Part shown: piece by piece, positions 4,538-14,408 of the stretch | Position numbering within the stretch: position 1 is the first letter of the stretch | How the letters are laid out: each line of letters begins with the position of its first letter | NCBI GenBank assembly: GCA_937922675.1 | Contig: CALAJN010000002.1 | Coordinates: 1 to 64,000 of the forward strand | DNA length: 64,000 bases | Direction of reading: 5' to 3' | Source: an uncultured Granulosicoccaceae bacterium | GTDB lineage: Bacteria > Pseudomonadota > Gammaproteobacteria > Granulosicoccales > Granulosicoccaceae | The notes under the pieces: generated by a model | Database searches by the model: none | What the model saw: only the letters and a program-made list of their open reading frames with translations | What the model was told of the DNA's origin: nothing | Position numbers and translations under genes: made by a program

Positions 4538-5731
4538 CTACTTCATCGGTAGTGGGTAATGTAGCCCCCCATCGGAGTACAGCGCATTCTGGCCTCGTGG
4601 CAGATCAAACAGTGTGTCGGGCCCGAGGTGACGGGTGTATATATCGCTGTAGTTGCCCACCTGTTTGATCACCTGATAGCAAAAATCATTGGCAAGCCCC
4701 ATCATCTGTCCGAGCTTCGAGGTGATGCCCAGTTGGCGCTCGACAGTTTCACGGTCAGCATTGAGCCGGCTATCGATATTCTCCCTGGACAGATCGTACA
4801 GTTCACCATTGAGTAGACATTGGAAGGTCCAATTGACGATATCCAGCCAATTGTCGTCTTCATGGCGAACAACCGGTCCGAGGGGTTCGCGACTGATCTC
4901 TTCGATGAGGAGCGTATGTTCGTCAGGTCGTGGTAGCAGGGTGCGTTGTGCAAGCAAACTTGATTTGTCGCCGGTGTAGGCATCACAACTCTCGTCAGCA
5001 TATTGTCGGAGCGCCGTTATCCTGTCTTCAAAGTCACGTATTTCTATTGGGATACCTACGCTTGCAAAGTAGTCTTCGACATTGACCGCAGATGTACTCG
5101 CGCTCTGCACGCAGATTGACTTTCCCTGCAGGTCAGATAATTTGCGTATTTCATCGGCCTTGCGCACGAGCATGCCCTGACCATCGTAGAACACCACACC
5201 GCCGTAGTTGCCTCGTGATTCGACATCGCGGCTGAGTGTCCATGTGGTGTTACGGGACAAAACGTCCACTTCTCCGGATTGCAGCGACGCGAATCTGAGT
5301 TTGCTCGTCAAGGGGATGATATGCACCTGGCTTGCCCCTTGTTCGCCCAACACAGAAGCTGCAATGGCGCGGCAGATGTCGATATCGAAGCCGACGAACT
5401 CGCTGGAGTCCGGGTCCAGATAGCCGAAGCCTGGCAAGTCGGCGTTGCCACCACAGCGCAGTACCTTGCGATCAAGCACTGATTGCAATGTGTCTCCGCC
5501 GCCTGCGTATTTGACCGGCTGCCACACCACCTGTTGCGTAATAAACCCCTGTTGTGCGTTGCGCTGCTCTTCAAATACTGAAGTCAGGGTGGCCAATTCA
5601 CTGCTGAGGCGGGTGTTCTCGCTGGACAGCTCAGCGAGCCTGATTTGAAACTGCTCCGAGTCATCGCCCGAGCACGCGCTCAGCAACAGGGCCATGGAGA
5701 TGCCAAGGCCTGTATGTATTCGAACTTTCAC
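4538..5731 (-). CDS. Amino-acid-type solute-binding lipoprotein (SBP_bac_3) with coiled-coil spacer, 397 aa
   Basis: GTG start at 5731, overlapping the stop of the upstream MscS gene by 4 nt (GTGA). The lipobox LLLSAC places the lipidated Cys at residue 20. Residues about 27-60 form a heptad-rich helix (FQIRLAELSSENTRLSSELA), likely a coiled coil holding the domain away from the membrane. From about residue 78 the sequence is a family 3 periplasmic amino-acid-binding domain (KVLRCGGNADLPGFGYLDP, FVGFDIDICRAIAASVLG) of the AapJ/general L-amino-acid type. No ABC permease or ATPase lies nearby, and the gene is translationally coupled to a channel and a receptor, so a sensory role is more likely than import. 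The coiled-coil linker is unusual for this family. Confidence 0.82.
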   Translation of the reverse strand: MKVRIHTGLGISMALLLSACSGDDSEQFQIRLAELSSENTRLSSELATLTSVFEEQRNAQQGFITQQVVWQPVKYAGGGDTLQSVLDRKVLRCGGNADLPGFGYLDPDSSEFVGFDIDICRAIAASVLGEQGASQVHIIPLTSKLRFASLQSGEVDVLSRNTTWTLSRDVESRGNYGGVVFYDGQGMLVRKADEIRKLSDLQGKSICVQSASTSAVNVEDYFASVGIPIEIRDFEDRITALRQYADESCDAYTGDKSSLLAQRTLLPRPDEHTLLIEEISREPLGPVVRHEDDNWLDIVNWTFQCLLNGELYDLSRENIDSRLNADRETVERQLGITSKLGQMMGLANDFCYQVIKQVGNYSDIYTRHLGPDTLFDLPRGQNALYSDGGLHYPLPMK

Positions 5732-7236
5732 GATTGCGCCATCTCAGCCTGAGGCTCCGATTTCATGGTGTTGTCAGGGGACTCGCCAGTAGCCGATGTC
5801 AACTCCAGCCTCGCACGTCGCTGCTCGACAACGAGGCTGAACTCATGTGCAAAGCCCGGATTGCGGTTTATGACATCGTTGATCAGATCATGCGGTATGC
5901 ACAGGATCTCTGCACTTGTACCTGCAATCGCTTTGACGGGACTGACCGCTTTGCCGAACAAACCTGCCTCACCAAAGAATTCACCGGGGTGCAGGGTTTG
6001 TAGTGTCTTGCCCGCTTGGCTCGTGGTGCCGTAGCTCAGATGGACAACGCCGGAAAGAACAACTGAGACACCGGTTTCTGTCTCACTTTGATTGACGATG
6101 ACTTCTTCTTCTGCATACAGTTTCAGATGTGCGCCGGTCGCGAGTCGTTCACGGACTGTCTGCGGCAAGCGCGAGAAATGCGGCACCCAGTCCAGCCTGT
6201 TTTTCAGAGCGTCCATTGTTGCTTCCTGCGCGGCGTTGACTACCCGCTGACCGCTGTAGGTATGCAGGTTGTAAAGTGGGGTGGGCAGTTCGATGCGATG
6301 TCGCTGAAGCGCGTACCAGACTCGCGACATGAATTCCGCATGCACATCGTATTTTTCACCATAGTCGCTTATCCAGAAATCAGCGCTGTAGTGCATTGCA
6401 GGGTCATCGATTTTGGTGACGACAATACTTGGTGCCGGTTCTGCGAGTATGCCGGGTGTGTTGCTGAACACTTCGTCAAACATATCCTTGATTGTGTTCG
6501 GCGAGTGTTGATAGGAAAAGGTGAAGGTTTCTGAAACCAGCGCCGTCTTGTGTGGGCGATTGTGATTCTCGATCGATTCACCAGCGATGGAACCATTGGG
6601 TATGACGACCAGATCTCCGTTCCAGTTTTCGATATTGGTATAGCGCCAGTTCACCGCGGTGATCTTTCCCTCCACGTCGCCCACTTGCACCCAGTCACCG
6701 GGTTTGAAGGGACTGTTGGCAACCAGTAAAATGCCTGACACCAGGTTGCTCAGCGTGTCTTGCAATGCAAACGCGACAACGATGGAGCCGATACCCAGTG
6801 TGGTTGCCATTTCACGAATGGGCAGTGACCACAGGTTTTGTACAACATGAAAAACGATCAGCCCCATGATGGTGTAGGGCGGCAATCGCAGAAACATGTG
6901 CGGCACCATATTGCGCCAGTCTTCGGCCGAGTAACTGCCACTGCCGATCAACCGGAGTGTGAGTCGGAACACGGCAATCATCAGCGCACCCCAGAACAGC
7001 GTGCTGATGACCTTTGTCGGCAAGTTCTGTGCGTCCACATTGAACACGAAGCGCAGCAGAATCACGAGGACCAGCAGGGGCAAGAGAACATCGCGCAGCA
7101 TCAACAGCAGATCCGTAAACTGACCCCCATTGCGCCGCGTCCGGTCTATGCCCTCGTTAAGCAGAACAATCGCCAGTGGCACCAGAAGCACCAGCGCCAC
7201 GCACCAGTACACATAGCTTGTCGCCAACACACTCAT
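5728..7236 (-). CDS. MscS-type mechanosensitive channel with C-terminal cyclic-nucleotide-binding-like domain, 502 aa
   Basis: ATG 7236 overlaps the upstream stop by 4 nt (ATGA); a longer reading of 17 codons is possible but uncoupled. Transmembrane segments lie near residues 5-26, 51-64, 76-95 and 115-135. The MscS pore helix and beta domain follow (FALQDTLSNLVSGILLVAN, then FKPGDWVQVGDVEGKI, NWRYTNIENWNGDLVVIPN; about 155-215), then the alpha/beta domain to about 330. Residues about 360-470 form a Crp-type cNMP fold (GVSVVLSGVVHLSYG, GEFFGEAGLFG). After FFGEAGLFG the usual phosphate-binding Arg is not seen (KAVSPVKAIAG), so cAMP/cGMP binding is doubtful. Resembles the bCNG/MscS-cNMP group. 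Middle gene of a coupled trio. Confidence 0.88.
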   Translation of the reverse strand: MSVLATSYVYWCVALVLLVPLAIVLLNEGIDRTRRNGGQFTDLLLMLRDVLLPLLVLVILLRFVFNVDAQNLPTKVISTLFWGALMIAVFRLTLRLIGSGSYSAEDWRNMVPHMFLRLPPYTIMGLIVFHVVQNLWSLPIREMATTLGIGSIVVAFALQDTLSNLVSGILLVANSPFKPGDWVQVGDVEGKITAVNWRYTNIENWNGDLVVIPNGSIAGESIENHNRPHKTALVSETFTFSYQHSPNTIKDMFDEVFSNTPGILAEPAPSIVVTKIDDPAMHYSADFWISDYGEKYDVHAEFMSRVWYALQRHRIELPTPLYNLHTYSGQRVVNAAQEATMDALKNRLDWVPHFSRLPQTVRERLATGAHLKLYAEEEVIVNQSETETGVSVVLSGVVHLSYGTTSQAGKTLQTLHPGEFFGEAGLFGKAVSPVKAIAGTSAEILCIPHDLINDVINRNPGFAHEFSLVVEQRRARLELTSATGESPDNTMKSEPQAEMAQS

Positions 7237-9377
7237 GGGACCAGCTCGTCCAGCGCTGCGGTCTCTAGCGGGCGCTCCGGAATCCATTCATAGATGGCAA
7301 AGCCATCATCATGACCATTCTGCCTCTGTTCGAAACCGTATCGATCGCCAATTCGTCCATAGACATCCTGCGAGACCATGATGGTGTTTGGTCGGGCGTG
7401 GCTGCAGACTTTGCGTGCGTGATCTGCGGTTTCCCCCCACAAACTGAAGCGCAATTTTCGTGAGCCGACAACGCCTGATGAAACCGTGCCCGAGTCAAGA
7501 CCGACACGTATTGAGAGTTGGCAGTGCTGCTCGGTATTGAAGCGCTTGACAATCTGAAGCGCTGCAATGGAAAAGTCGATGGAGCGCCGTGCGTGATCGA
7601 GTCTGGCGCCGCTGAGGCCGCAAACGGCACAATATTCAGTGCCGGAGGAACTGATCGCCTTCACATCAAACCGTTCGGTGGCATCGTCCAGTGCGTCGAG
7701 AATGTCCTGAAGGCCCTCGGCCGCGCGCATGATGCCCAGTTTTTCGGTGACCTGACCAAACCCATCGAGTTCCAGTTGGATCACAGTGACTTGTTGATGC
7801 TGGTCGGCTATGTGTTCCTTGCTGTGGTAACGCGCGTGCAGCTCTGCCGGCAGGATGTGAGAAAGCAATTCAGCATTCTCGGTTTGACGCTCTTTGAGTT
7901 GTCGGGATTTCTCATGAATGCTGGTGTTCATCTTGTTGAACTGATGTGCCAGATCACCAAACTCATCGTTGTCCGGAGCGTCGATCTGTACCAGCGTGTC
8001 GCCAGCCTGCATTTTTTGTACACCCGCGCTCAAGCGTTCGATCGGCCTGACAAAATAGCGAGAAAGCAGGATCGCGATAAAGGCTACTCCAAGTACAAGA
8101 ATGGCACTCCAGGTCAGTAAGTTGCGCTGTAGCGTGGTGATGGGTTCAAACGCCTCCTCTACGGTCATCTCGGAGATGATCGCCCAGTCCAGTCCCTCGA
8201 CATTCAAAGGTGAGTAAGAGCTGAGCACACGCTGTCCAAGGTAGTTGGTCGTTATGTGGTTGCCAGACTGATCATCCAGTGCATTTTGAACACTGGCACT
8301 GACAACCGGTTGAACTAGCAAGGTCGTGTCAAAGGCACTGATACGATTCACCGTGGTGCTGGAGAGGTCGTACTGCTTGATAGCATCGAAATACGCATCC
8401 TTGTCTTCAACAAACAGACGCGATACAGAGCGCATCAGCCGGTCTGAGCCCACCAGGTAGGATTCACCGGTTTGGCCCAGGCCATTCTCGCTCCACTGTT
8501 GATCGACTGTCATGACGGTGTTCAGGGCATCAACGGGAATCTGCACAACCACTATTCCAACGACCTCGTTACGGTCGAATATCGGTGCGCCAATGAACGC
8601 TGCCGGAGCACCGTAGGAGGGTGCATAGGATCTGAAATCAACAATGGAGACGCTGTCGCGTTCAGGATTTTCCCTGATTTGATTGGCGATCAGGCCCAAC
8701 CCGGATTCTCGGTGGGGACCATCCTGAAGACTGGTAGCAAAATCGACCTCCTTGAATACGCTGTAGACAACACTAAGTGACTTGATGTCGATCAAAAAAA
8801 CATCGTAGTAACCAAATTCTTCCTGCAGGCTACGGAAGATCGGATGATAGAAGCTATGAAAGCGGTTGTAGATCGTGCTGTCTTCCTTCGACTCGACCAG
8901 GCTGTCCTTTTCATTGAGCGGGTAGGGGTTGTTGACAATATAGTGGTACTGAAAGTACCTGGCAGCTGCGCGGCTGGGCTGATACAACACAGAGAGTGGT
9001 GTGCTGGTGGAATTGGCGGCGATCTCCGGAACAAAAATGTCATCATAGAAAGCGGATACTGCTGCTTCCTGCTCCTCACTCAAGGATTTGTACAGCCCGC
9101 TGGTATAGCCTTGCTGAAACTGGTTCATCGCATTGACGATCATGCGATCGTGCGCGAGGCTGCGTGTGTGCGCGAATGACTGGGTAAAGAGCTGCTCTAT
9201 CTGACGAGACTGCAGTGAACGGATGCTGTTGAGCTGATTGGTAATGGAGGTGTCGAGCGCACGGCGACCATTCTGCCAACCCAGAATGCCAACCACGACA
9301 CTGGCAATGAGCGTGACACTGATCAGCATGATAATCAGCCGTGATTTGATGCTGAGGTCGTTAAAAAGTTGACTCAT
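7233..9377 (-). CDS. Cache-HAMP receptor with class III cyclase-like domain, 714 aa
   Basis: Start chosen at ATG 9377 (AGGA 6 nt upstream). TM1 is about residues 12-34; a large periplasmic dCache-type sensor spans about 35-420; TM2 about 421-441; HAMP about 442-495 (RPIERLSAGVQKMQAGD, DEFGDLAHQFNKM); a class III nucleotide cyclase domain about 527-700 (VTVIQLELDGFGQ, IRVGLDSGTVSSGVVGSRK, LRFSLWGET). Catalytic positions deviate: the first metal Asp is Glu (LEL), the second metal Asp region reads AISSSGTEYCAV, and the usual N-x3-R reads ADHARK. It may be a degenerate, regulatory or differently specific cyclase. First gene of the trio with the MscS-CNBD channel and binding lipoprotein. Confidence 0.83.
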   Translation of the reverse strand: MSQLFNDLSIKSRLIIMLISVTLIASVVVGILGWQNGRRALDTSITNQLNSIRSLQSRQIEQLFTQSFAHTRSLAHDRMIVNAMNQFQQGYTSGLYKSLSEEQEAAVSAFYDDIFVPEIAANSTSTPLSVLYQPSRAAARYFQYHYIVNNPYPLNEKDSLVESKEDSTIYNRFHSFYHPIFRSLQEEFGYYDVFLIDIKSLSVVYSVFKEVDFATSLQDGPHRESGLGLIANQIRENPERDSVSIVDFRSYAPSYGAPAAFIGAPIFDRNEVVGIVVVQIPVDALNTVMTVDQQWSENGLGQTGESYLVGSDRLMRSVSRLFVEDKDAYFDAIKQYDLSSTTVNRISAFDTTLLVQPVVSASVQNALDDQSGNHITTNYLGQRVLSSYSPLNVEGLDWAIISEMTVEEAFEPITTLQRNLLTWSAILVLGVAFIAILLSRYFVRPIERLSAGVQKMQAGDTLVQIDAPDNDEFGDLAHQFNKMNTSIHEKSRQLKERQTENAELLSHILPAELHARYHSKEHIADQHQQVTVIQLELDGFGQVTEKLGIMRAAEGLQDILDALDDATERFDVKAISSSGTEYCAVCGLSGARLDHARRSIDFSIAALQIVKRFNTEQHCQLSIRVGLDSGTVSSGVVGSRKLRFSLWGETADHARKVCSHARPNTIMVSQDVYGRIGDRYGFEQRQNGHDDGFAIYEWIPERPLETAALDELVP

Positions 9378-10619: not shown

Positions 10620-11600
10620 ATGAAATCAATCAGTCTGGCCCTGATAGCCGCGGTAGTGGCGGGCACTGCAAGCTCGGCCGCGTTCGCTGCAGAAAACTGG
10701 GATATGCCCATGGCTTACCCGGCAGATAACTATCACACCGAGAATGCTCAGATGTTTGCCGACGCGGTGGATGAGTGCACCGGTGGTGAGCTCAAGATCA
10801 CCATCCACGCCAGTGGCTCGTTGTTCAAGGGCAGTGAGATCAAACGAGCTGTGCAAGTGGGTGAGGCGCAGATCGGCGAGCGCCTCTTGTCGGCACACGC
10901 CAATGAGAATGCTGTATTCGGATATGACTCGGTGCCGTTTCTAGCCACCTCCTTTGAGGCCTCGGATACGCTCCGCGAGGCTGCAGAGCCTACTCTCACC
11001 AAGGTGCTTCAGGCGCAGGGCCTGACCCCGCTGTACTCGGTGCCGTGGCCGCCTCAGGGCTTGTATTTTGCCAAGCCTGTTGCCTCCACAGCCGATATGG
11101 CTGGTATCAAGTTTCGCGCATACAACGCAGCGACAGCACGGGTTGCCGAGCTTGCCGGGATGATCCCGACCCAGATCGAGGCTGCTGAGCTGAAGCAGGC
11201 GCTGTCAACCGGCGTCATTTCATCGTTCATCTCCTCGGGTTCCACTGGTGTTGACGAGAAGGTATGGGAAGACCTCACCCACTTCTATGACACTAAGGCC
11301 TGGTTGCCGCGCAACACGATCTTCGTCAACACAGCGGCCCTTGATGCCTTGGGTGAGACCGAGCAGGGCTGTTTGACCAGCCTCGCTTCGGAGGCACAGG
11401 AGCGAGGCCTTGCAACGGCTGCCGAGCTCGCCGACGGCTTTCTGAAAACCCTCGCCGATAACGGCATGACCGTTGAAGAGGCGGGTGCGGATCTGGCGGC
11501 CGAGCTTGCAGGCATCGGTGAAACGATGACAGGCGAGTGGCTAGAGAGCGCCGGGGACGATGGCGCCGCGATCGTGGACGCATACAAGGCTAGCCAGTAG
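10620..11600 (+). CDS. TRAP transporter periplasmic solute-binding protein (DctP family), 326 aa
   Basis: Captures an organic acid in the periplasm and delivers it to the DctQM membrane protein encoded just downstream. GAGGAG precedes the ATG. The signal peptide MKSISLALIAAVVAGTASSA is cleaved around AFA-AEN (residue 23). The mature domain shows the DctP layout (NYHTENAQMFADAVDECTGG near the N-terminus, GIKFRAYNAATARVAELAG with the substrate-contacting Arg around residue 162). The region GLYFAKPVASTADM is also typical. The acidic, Ala-rich C-terminus is normal for these proteins. Substrate not deducible; C4-dicarboxylate, 2-oxo acid or amino-acid-derived anions are possible. Confidence 0.92.
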   Translation: MKSISLALIAAVVAGTASSAAFAAENWDMPMAYPADNYHTENAQMFADAVDECTGGELKITIHASGSLFKGSEIKRAVQVGEAQIGERLLSAHANENAVFGYDSVPFLATSFEASDTLREAAEPTLTKVLQAQGLTPLYSVPWPPQGLYFAKPVASTADMAGIKFRAYNAATARVAELAGMIPTQIEAAELKQALSTGVISSFISSGSTGVDEKVWEDLTHFYDTKAWLPRNTIFVNTAALDALGETEQGCLTSLASEAQERGLATAAELADGFLKTLADNGMTVEEAGADLAAELAGIGETMTGEWLESAGDDGAAIVDAYKASQ

Positions 11601-11630
11601 CCTGCTGCATCCTTCTTGATCAGGCGGATG

Positions 11631-11660
11631 TGCCTCCCGGTAGTGGGCAATCGGGAGGCA
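11631..11660 (+). promoter_or_regulatory. Intercistronic hairpin between dctP and dctQM
   Basis: TGCCTCCCG and CGGGAGGCA form a perfect 9-bp stem around a 12-nt loop, without a T-tract. This is the expected position for an mRNA-stabilising or partially attenuating hairpin that raises binding-protein expression over the membrane subunit. Confidence 0.6.
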
Positions 11661-11691
11661 TGCCGTTCGTCGTACTACCGAGGTCACTCAC

Positions 11692-13611
11692 TTGCGCGTA
11701 TTTCTCGATTCGGTATATCGGTTCAGTGGCCTTGCCTCAGCGCTTGCCCTGTGCGCGATCCTGGTACTGGTTACCGCCCAAATGGTGGCGCGCTGGCTCG
11801 GGCTGATCTTTACCGGAGGAGCCAACTACGCAGGCTACGCCATGGCCACCACCTCGTTTCTGGCGCTCGCCTATACCTTCAATCACAACGCTCACATCCG
11901 CGTGTCCTTGTTTGTGACGCGGTCCGGGCGCTGGCGACGCGCCATGGAGATCTGGTGCTACACGCTGGCCTCGCTGGCCGCCTGCTTTCTTGCGTGGTAC
12001 GCGATAAAGGCGACGTTGTTGTCGCATCGCATCAACGACATCTCGCAAGGTCAGGATGCGACTCCTTTGTGGATACCGCAGACCTTCATGGCCATGGGGG
12101 CCGTGATATTTGCAGTGGCGGTTGTCGATAACCTCTGTCGAATTGTATTGACCGAACATCAGGGTGTCGATGGCAAGGCAGATCCTGTTGAGTGGCTGCA
12201 CAACAAGGTGGGATCACGACGCGCTCGACTGCTGCTCTTTGGTGGCGTTCTGCTCATCGTATGGGCAGCGGCGGTACTGATGACAGGCTTTGACCGAGAA
12301 GCTGTCGCCTTGAAGATAGGTATCTTTCTGGTCGTGCTGTTCTTGTTGTTGGGCTCAGGCTTGTGGGTGGGTCTTGCCTTGATGGGTGTTGCCTACATCG
12401 GGATGATCGGATTTACCACGCGCGATCCAGGTAATGCCATGATCATCACCGTCTGGACCGGCGCCAGCAGCTGGACGCTGACGGCTCTGCCGTTGTTTAT
12501 CTGGATGGGTGAGATCCTCTACAGAACGCGATTGTCCGAAGACATGTTCAAGGGCCTGGCACCCTGGATGTCCCGTATTCCCGGTGGGTTGCTACACACC
12601 AATGTGGTCGGTTGCACCGTCTTCGCCGCGGTATCAGGCTCATCAGCGGCAACGTTGACCACGGTTGGCAAAATGTCGATACCTGAGCTTAGAAAACGTG
12701 GCTATCCGGAGTTCATGACGATAGGCACCCTGGCAGGGGCGGCCACGCTTGGACTGATGATCCCGCCGTCGCTGACACTGATTGTGTACGGCGTCACGGT
12801 GAAGGAGAGCATCAGCAAGTTGTTTATCGCAGGCGTTATTCCAGGTTTGGTGCTAGCGTCACTGTTCATGCTGTACATCGTGGCCTGGTACTTTTTAAAG
12901 CCGGGTGAGCGCCCGATCCCCGAGCCGCGTGTGCCATTTCTTGCGGCCATCAAGCAGTCGCGACTGTTGTTCCCGGTGATCGCGCTGGTGATGCTCGTCA
13001 TCGGCTCGATGTACACAGGCTACGCAACAGCGACAGAAGCTGCGGCCTTTGGCGTGATCGGTGCGCTGGTTCTAGCCGCGTTGCAGGGCTCATTGTCGCG
13101 CGCCACCTTTACCGAAAGTGTGTTGGGCGCCACGCGCACCTCAGCCATGATTGCCTTGATCTTGATGGGCGCGGGTTTTTTGTCCTTGTCCATGGGATTT
13201 ACCGGCTTGCCACGTGCCCTTGCAGAATGGATAGCCACACTTGGCTTGTCACCAGTGGAGCTGATTGTTGCCTTGACGGTGTTCTACATCATCATTGGCA
13301 TGTTTCTGGACGGGATTTCGGCTGTGGTTCTGACCATGGCCATCATTGACCCGATGGTGAGGGCTGCAGGCATCGACCTGATCTGGTTCGGCATCTTTAT
13401 CGTGGTGGTTGTGGAAATGGCCCAGATCACGCCACCGATTGGTTTCAATCTGTTTGTCTTGCAGGGCATGACCAATCACGACATTGCCTACATCTCACGT
13501 ACCGCCGTGCCGATGTTCTTGATCATGGTGCTGATGGTGGCCATCCTGACCGTGTTCCCGGAGCTTGCTACCTGGTTGCCTGATCAAGTGCGCCAGACAC
13601 CTCGTGGGTAG
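11692..13611 (+). CDS. TRAP transporter fused small and large permease subunits (DctQM), 639 aa
   Basis: Sodium-coupled secondary transporter. The first about 160 residues are the four-helix DctQ part (LALCAILVLVTAQMVARWLG, then FNHNAHIRVSLFV). After a linker with one extra helix (LLLFGGVLLIVWAAAVLM) comes the DctM part with its typical motifs: ALPLFIWMGEIL, GCTVFAAVSGSSAATLTTVG (about 305-324), AGAATLGLMIPPSLTLIVYG and DGISAVVLTMAIIDP. DctQ-DctM fusion is common in marine proteobacteria. Start is TTG 11692, since no ATG or GTG fits the family N-terminus. Follows dctP by 91 nt with an intervening hairpin. Confidence 0.92.
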   Translation: MRVFLDSVYRFSGLASALALCAILVLVTAQMVARWLGLIFTGGANYAGYAMATTSFLALAYTFNHNAHIRVSLFVTRSGRWRRAMEIWCYTLASLAACFLAWYAIKATLLSHRINDISQGQDATPLWIPQTFMAMGAVIFAVAVVDNLCRIVLTEHQGVDGKADPVEWLHNKVGSRRARLLLFGGVLLIVWAAAVLMTGFDREAVALKIGIFLVVLFLLLGSGLWVGLALMGVAYIGMIGFTTRDPGNAMIITVWTGASSWTLTALPLFIWMGEILYRTRLSEDMFKGLAPWMSRIPGGLLHTNVVGCTVFAAVSGSSAATLTTVGKMSIPELRKRGYPEFMTIGTLAGAATLGLMIPPSLTLIVYGVTVKESISKLFIAGVIPGLVLASLFMLYIVAWYFLKPGERPIPEPRVPFLAAIKQSRLLFPVIALVMLVIGSMYTGYATATEAAAFGVIGALVLAALQGSLSRATFTESVLGATRTSAMIALILMGAGFLSLSMGFTGLPRALAEWIATLGLSPVELIVALTVFYIIIGMFLDGISAVVLTMAIIDPMVRAAGIDLIWFGIFIVVVVEMAQITPPIGFNLFVLQGMTNHDIAYISRTAVPMFLIMVLMVAILTVFPELATWLPDQVRQTPRG

Positions 13612-13634: not shown

Positions 13635-14408
13635 TCATGCGCGCCTTTGGCGCTGTAGTGCCCAACAGACAACATCAACCAGGTCTACCACCGGTACCTT
13701 GCAAACACGTTCGACGACTGCCCGCCAGGGGGCAAGATTGGTGCACTCGAGAATAACGAAGGCAGGCCGCTGAGCCGCCAAACGTATCGCTGCAGTCTCG
13801 ACGTCTTGCTCGAGCAGACTCACATCCGGTGGTGATCGCTCATGGATGACATCAGCAAAGTGACTGTCAGGCGCGATTCCGACAATGTGCGGTGTGGGGT
13901 ACACACCGCCCTGCTCGCAGATGGCTCGTGTATCGAGTGCTCGTTCATCAAAGGTCAGCACGCCCGCGTGTTGTGTCTCGCCCGCGAGTTTTTGCAAGGT
14001 CGGCAGCACCAGCAATGAGCTTGCAACAACCGGTACCGAAAGCGACGCTGCGAGTTCGGCTTGTACGCTGTGCAGAAACCCGCAACTGGTTGTGATCACA
14101 CTTGCCCCATGTTTGATGAGCGCATTGCCTGCGCGGGCAAAGCCCTCGAACAATTGCGGTGGCAATTCATCCCTTGTGACCACCGCGTCTACTACAGCGC
14201 TCTCCACTCGCCTTTGCAGCGTGGCAAACGGCAAGGAGTCGGGGCAACCGATGTCCCGCGGGTATCGCTTGAATGCGGTATCCAGCATCAACACCCCAAC
14301 CGGTGCGCTCTGGTCGCAAGCGTTTTCGATGTGGCGGACGTTGACAGACCGCGCAACCCACTCAAGCTTGAGTTCGCTGTCATCTATCGGAAAGGGATAG
14401 GGCGCCAT
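13635..14408 (-). CDS. Aspartate/glutamate/hydantoin racemase-like protein, 257 aa
   Basis: The protein has the two-cysteine layout of cofactor-independent Asp/Glu racemases: VITTSCGFLH (first Cys near residue 109) and VILECTNLAPW (second Cys near residue 222). The middle VPVVASSLLVLPTLQKLAG and AGVLTFDE also fit. It could be an amino acid racemase or a maleate/arylmalonate-type relative. It converges on the TRAP operon with only 23 bp between stops. If linked by function, the TRAP substrate may be a dicarboxylate or acidic amino acid, which is inference. No strong SD identified. Confidence 0.75.
   Translation of the reverse strand: MAPYPFPIDDSELKLEWVARSVNVRHIENACDQSAPVGVLMLDTAFKRYPRDIGCPDSLPFATLQRRVESAVVDAVVTRDELPPQLFEGFARAGNALIKHGASVITTSCGFLHSVQAELAASLSVPVVASSLLVLPTLQKLAGETQHAGVLTFDERALDTRAICEQGGVYPTPHIVGIAPDSHFADVIHERSPPDVSLLEQDVETAAIRLAAQRPAFVILECTNLAPWRAVVERVCKVPVVDLVDVVCWALQRQRRA

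Follow-up and report, generated by a model that had tools for sequence, protein, structure and literature searches.

A dCache-HAMP receptor with a degenerate cyclase domain encoded beside an MscS-type channel with an Arg-less CNBD: a candidate receptor-gated channel in Granulosicoccaceae

Does a cyclase-like receptor encoded next to a CNBD-bearing channel address that channel through a chemical messenger? The question is raised by three minus-strand genes in a 64,000-nucleotide stretch of DNA (hereafter the window) from a marine-type bacterium of the Granulosicoccaceae, which encode, in order, a receptor (CYC), an MscS-type channel (MSC) and a binding lipoprotein (SBP) (Table 1). The original prediction, made from the sequence alone, described a trio with overlapping stops and starts at both junctions, and the 4-nt overlaps are indeed present in the sequence. 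Its domain assignments are borne out by Pfam, with Guanylate_cyc (2.6e-29) and HAMP (2.9e-11) in CYC, MS_channel_2nd (7.9e-22) and cNMP_binding (3.7e-14) in MSC and SBP_bac_3 (5.7e-14) in SBP, the dCache_1 match of CYC falling below its gathering score (7.7e-07, 29.3 bits against a 45-bit cut-off; the homologue L228 scores 45.8). Overlaps of 4 nt are by themselves commonplace in bacterial operons; what rises above chance here is the kept gene order, with all three genes recurring in a second genus and the CYC-MSC pair at 44 loci in four phyla. Promoter-like sites were found at chance level only. Inspection by eye of the opposite strand past the trio revealed genes for a TRAP-type binding protein and a fused permease (10620-13611), on which an Asp/Glu racemase-like gene (13635-14408) converges.

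Table 1. Coordinates of the trio and its parts in the window, and, by locus, of receptor and fusion genes at other MscS-CNBD loci.
Feature	Position	Strand	Evidence
CYC, transmembrane receptor, dCache-HAMP-degenerate class III cyclase, 714 aa	7233..9377	-	ORF, Pfam, AlphaFold model, structure comparison
Predicted periplasmic Cache sensor of CYC, residues 36-410, between two TM helices	8148..9272	-	sub-threshold Pfam dCache_1, AlphaFold
HAMP domain of CYC, residues 437-483	7929..8069	-	Pfam
Pseudo-cyclase domain of CYC, residues 525-685, E536/T580/D652/K656 replacing D/D/N/R, fold kept	7323..7805	-	
CYC/MSC stop-start overlap, ATGA	7233..7236	-	sequence
MSC, MscS-type channel, 502 aa, CNBD at the C-terminus, five long helices predicted in the N-terminal part	5728..7236	-	
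CNBD of MSC, residues 373-459, phosphate-binding cassette FGEAGLFGKAVSPVKA, Glu423 kept, Ser432 replacing Arg	5860..6120	-	
MSC/SBP stop-start overlap, GTGA	5728..5731	-	sequence
SBP, AapJ-type amino-acid binding lipoprotein, 397 aa	4538..5731	-	
Coiled-coil spacer of SBP, residues 26-60, lipid anchor to binding domain	5552..5656	-	heptads in sequence; similar stretch in L033
HAMP-HAMP_2 membrane receptors, no output domain recognised, immediately upstream of MscS-CNBD with intact Arg	L132 3294-4982; L133 3127-4536; L135 3412-4863; L145 3080-4531		
dCache_3 receptors adjoining MscS-CNBD with Gln for CNBD Arg	L136 1151-2977; L137 3263-5089; L138 1814-3601; L146 3312-5078; L148 3333-5159		
Peripla_BP_6/ANF_receptor-like + MscS-CNBD fusions	L091 3496-6924; L092 2614-6108; L093 3750-7547; L094 327-3830; L095 3324-6878; L096 3308-7456		

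The same trio is carried by a second Granulosicoccaceae genus (genome G030), at 48% (CYC), 52% (MSC) and 59% (SBP) identity, with the CYC/MSC overlap of 4 nt retained and a gap of 258 nt ahead of SBP. Among 57 genomes (the window's own and its relatives), G030 is the only other one with a close full-length channel; the channel is single-copy in the window's genome, where other MscS matches are partial and 22-29% identical. Within the genus, 27 genomes were covered and the window's own is the sole carrier of the module, so the distribution is patchy. Profile searches coupled with neighbourhood analysis gave 44 CYC-MSC pairs, distributed over Pseudomonadota (6), Bacteroidota (16, mostly Saprospiraceae MAGs), Cyanobacteriota (20) and Planctomycetota (2) and including the named assemblies Waterburya agarophytonicola and Lyngbya confervoides; a related-locus search seeded with the window channel alone returned no matches, and one seeded with a three-row alignment returned some. 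In these pairs CYC comes first, on the same strand as MSC, and the two genes mostly overlap or lie <100 bp apart. The Bacteroidota pairs rest on a pattern scan, as a broad class sample of 247 genomes yielded the pair in the seed genome only. Channels scoring above about 490 bits against the family profile are all paired except L081, L083 and L157 (L181, whose ORF a simple caller did not resolve, is left out of this statement), and the identities of CYC and MSC across pairs correlate (Spearman 0.87), as co-inheritance would give. The second genus and the four phyla refute a one-strain artefact.

The predicted adjacency of all three families stood only in part: the Cache-cyclase and MscS-CNBD genes recur as neighbours, and most such pairs lack SBP. 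This third gene is specific to a lineage and not a core member, since it was found only with the two Granulosicoccaceae pairs and, as a protein of another family, in one cyanobacterium. In the latter (G814, L175/L228), the CYC-MSC-SBP order is found with a PBP_like_2 (PstS-like) lipoprotein, unrelated in family to the window SBP, whose gene overlaps that of the channel by 4 nt. Genome G808 (L176/L229) has a PBP_like_2 lipoprotein after the channel and no CYC; at L229 (4893-7431) this paired-group channel lies between an upstream LysR-type gene and the downstream PstS-like lipoprotein gene. The pair tree groups the window with L033, L162, L163, L175 and L177 (SH-aLRT 99), a join that includes several long branches and may be false.

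CYC has the predicted layout of a periplasm-sensing receptor, with transmembrane helices predicted by hydropathy at residues 14-32 and 420-438 and a Cache region modelled by AlphaFold at pLDDT mostly 85-96. Its cyclase domain keeps the fold, the model superposing on 1azs_A with a TM-score of 0.89 (1.4 A) and on many catalytic cores at 0.85-0.89, and carries other residues at each of the four class III catalytic positions tested, namely those of both metal-binding Asp, the transition-state Asn and the transition-state Arg. Among paired cyclases, whose domains share a mean pairwise identity of 41%, 39/43 miss at least one residue of this tetrad, with losses that differ between lineages, and just four (L055, L090, L158 and L160) have it in full. 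By comparison, the tetrad is complete in 26 of 28 control cyclases taken from related genomes and not adjoining an MscS-CNBD channel of the paired kind (Fisher p 5e-13, relatedness uncorrected). The minimum numbers of changes on the pair tree (Me1 7, Me2 4, Asn 5, Arg 7), accumulated while the fold stayed, suggest that catalysis is dispensable in several lineages. Some paired cyclases may nevertheless be active, since four keep the tetrad and many from Saprospiraceae miss Arg alone. Two cyanobacterial pseudo-cyclase receptors of the CYC family carry a C-terminal Globin domain (L228 4822-7566 and L230 5701-8298). Separately, a same-genus relative encodes an unlinked degenerate cyclase (tetrad EDDE; L210 1399-2840), whose gene overlaps one resembling, by eye, a truncated hemoglobin.

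The receiving side has likewise lost a canonical residue. MSC has an MscS pore and beta domain (Foldseek match E 6e-15), and the CNBD fold at its C-terminus is also found in the structure model. The Arg that binds the cyclic phosphate occurs in none of the 44 paired channels (37 Ser, 4 Gly, 2 Thr, 1 Asn), those beside the four tetrad-bearing cyclases included, and in 45 of 60 unpaired MscS-CNBD channels. By sequence the paired channels seem to form a single group, so this loss may have happened just once; L157 and L176, which score like the paired group and have no CYC found adjoining, also carry Ser at this position.

SBP bears a lipobox (LLLSAC, Cys20) followed, at about residues 32-53, by heptads of Leu and Asn, both features being found in L033 too. 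Its residues 79-396 resemble the general L-amino acid binding protein AapJ (4z9n residues 9-327, E 2e-74) over the whole binding protein, including the AapJ C-terminal region. Within 258 class genomes, no SBP with an N-terminal coiled coil was found besides that of the window, the other matches being AapJ-type proteins that match only from profile position 71 or later. No ABC permease gene adjoins SBP among the window's listed ORFs, and a canonical AapJ paralogue (L227) adjoins an AapQ-like gene in the same genome.

With the pairing conserved and both messenger synthesis and messenger binding lost, direct receptor-channel coupling is the simplest account; since making and reading of the message both look switched off, the sensor probably acts on the channel by physical contact and not through a chemical messenger. 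In the resulting scheme, for which we judge the case evenly poised, a periplasmic cue would be sensed by the dCache-HAMP receptor and the change relayed through HAMP to the catalytically dead cyclase domain, which would serve as a coupling head, in contact with the partner channel's CNBD, and would set the open probability of that channel with no diffusible cAMP or cGMP. In Granulosicoccaceae, the added lipid-anchored, coiled-coil AapJ-type SBP would dock on the receptor and present (or report) a ligand resembling an amino acid to receptor and channel. The earlier suggestion that the unit ties ligand sensing to a channel finds support, with the ligand and the gating as its putative elements. 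The family expectation of a dimeric receptor and a heptameric channel implies a symmetry mismatch, which is, together with the intact tetrad in four homologues, the main doubt about direct coupling. Arg-intact channels linked to HAMP-HAMP_2 or Peripla_BP_6 proteins, the patchy same-genus presence and the absence of SBP from most pairs also count against it.

Elsewhere, MscS-CNBD genes likewise follow receptor genes that lack a recognised active output enzyme (Table 1). Four lie directly after HAMP-HAMP_2 receptor genes, with a 4-nt overlap at L135. Five adjoin dCache_3 receptors, whose cytoplasmic half gives sub-threshold HisKA/HATPase_c matches with Ala at the inferred phospho-His position, which is suggestive, at the level of sequence, of another dead enzyme. 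A gene for a Peripla_BP_6 protein precedes an MscS-CNBD gene at L141, and six gammaproteobacterial proteins of about 1140-1380 aa (L091-L096) fuse a periplasmic-binding-protein-like region (Pfam-confirmed as Peripla_BP_6 in three) to MscS-CNBD through a middle region without Pfam match. These fusions, which have a canonical CNBD Arg, are candidate one-piece ligand-gated MscS channels. The channels linked to HAMP-HAMP_2 or Peripla_BP_6 keep this Arg, and SBP + MscS-CNBD linkage recurs with three SBP families.

Three other explanations have to be weighed. The one that survives best, though we consider it unlikely, is that both domains, though degenerate, have kept small-molecule ligands: an NTP in the pseudo-cyclase and, in the CNBD, something non-cyclic, for instance a nucleoside. 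The unit would then integrate an outside cue with the nucleotide state of the cell. The purine-recognition Lys of the cyclase is indeed kept in 36/43 paired proteins and the CNBD Glu in 37/44, and the Arg-less CNBDs of trypanosomatid PKA-R bind purine nucleosides (PMC10959531); however, the window cyclase has Ala at the Lys position, and its CNBD has Gly425 where the glutamates that set PKA-R nucleoside specificity sit (PKA Ala202/Ala326 positions; PMC10959531). Classing the window CNBD as a nucleoside binder of the trypanosomatid kind was rejected, the defining Glu being absent. Plain co-transcription, by which a channel gated by tension, a signalling protein and a surplus amino-acid SBP that serves an AapQMP-type transporter encoded elsewhere would share an operon with no direct functional link, appears more improbable still: the second AapJ beside an AapQ-like gene, the pairs lacking SBP and the many MscS-CNBD channels with no adjoining CYC fit it, but the CYC-MSC order and proximity kept across four phyla and the recurrent linkage of SBPs to these channels do not. 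The local second-messenger gate of the original prediction, in which CYC would make cAMP or cGMP to open the neighbouring channel, can draw on the juxtaposed folds, the four complete tetrads and the widely kept CNBD Glu, but is not supported by the residues themselves, at the locus and in 39/43 cyclases and 44/44 CNBDs, and we regard it as very improbable.

Direct coupling between receptor and channel may extend well beyond this locus. As a tentative generalization, somewhat less probable than the scheme for the trio, a widespread bacterial class of receptor-gated channels could exist: a Cache receptor whose cyclase head is catalytically dead would directly touch the cyclic-nucleotide-blind CNBD of an MscS-type channel made as a separate protein, and so open it. 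Binding proteins, fused or as separate lipoproteins, would have been taken on repeatedly to sense ligands outside the cell, and the result would be a prokaryotic counterpart of ionotropic receptors with an MscS pore at its core. If so, the MscS superfamily would include channels gated by chemical receptors instead of tension or cyclic nucleotides, the transmission line would consist of an enzyme and a ligand pocket that are both dead, and a cyclase gene found beside that of a CNBD channel should not be annotated as cAMP signalling without caution. The module is small, at two or three genes, has named cyanobacteria among its hosts and is directly open to electrophysiology. Its component parts are already known; a description of the CYC-MSC(-SBP) module was not found in the literature searched (MscS-CNBD with cyclase, HAMP or SBP), in which subscription papers were thinly covered.

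Among known systems, LuxP-LuxQ and NspS-MbaA are SBP-dependent sensors, in which a solitary binding protein is encoded beside a periplasm-sensing membrane receptor; the presumed output of the window unit is, in contrast, an ion channel. Compared with AapJ (PDB 4z9n family), the window SBP is similar throughout its binding domain but adds a lipid anchor and coiled-coil spacer and has no AapQMP alongside. CYC shares its predicted receptor layout and its cyclase fold with the dCache-HAMP class III nucleotide cyclases, whereas the tetrad of paired CYC proteins is mostly incomplete and their output is apparently a channel and not a messenger. The Arg-less CNBDs of trypanosomatid PKA-R (PMC10959531) resemble that of the window in replacing the phosphate-binding Arg by a polar residue, and differ by the hallmark of their group, a ribose-binding Glu at the Ala202 position. 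The closest relatives of MSC in architecture are the bCNG (bacterial cyclic nucleotide-gated) channels of the MscS superfamily (Caldwell et al. 2010, as cited in PMC4560390), with which it shares the MscS pore, beta domain and C-terminal CNBD, and from which the paired channels are set apart by the uniform lack of the cyclic-phosphate Arg and by their constant partner, a dCache-HAMP pseudo-cyclase receptor.
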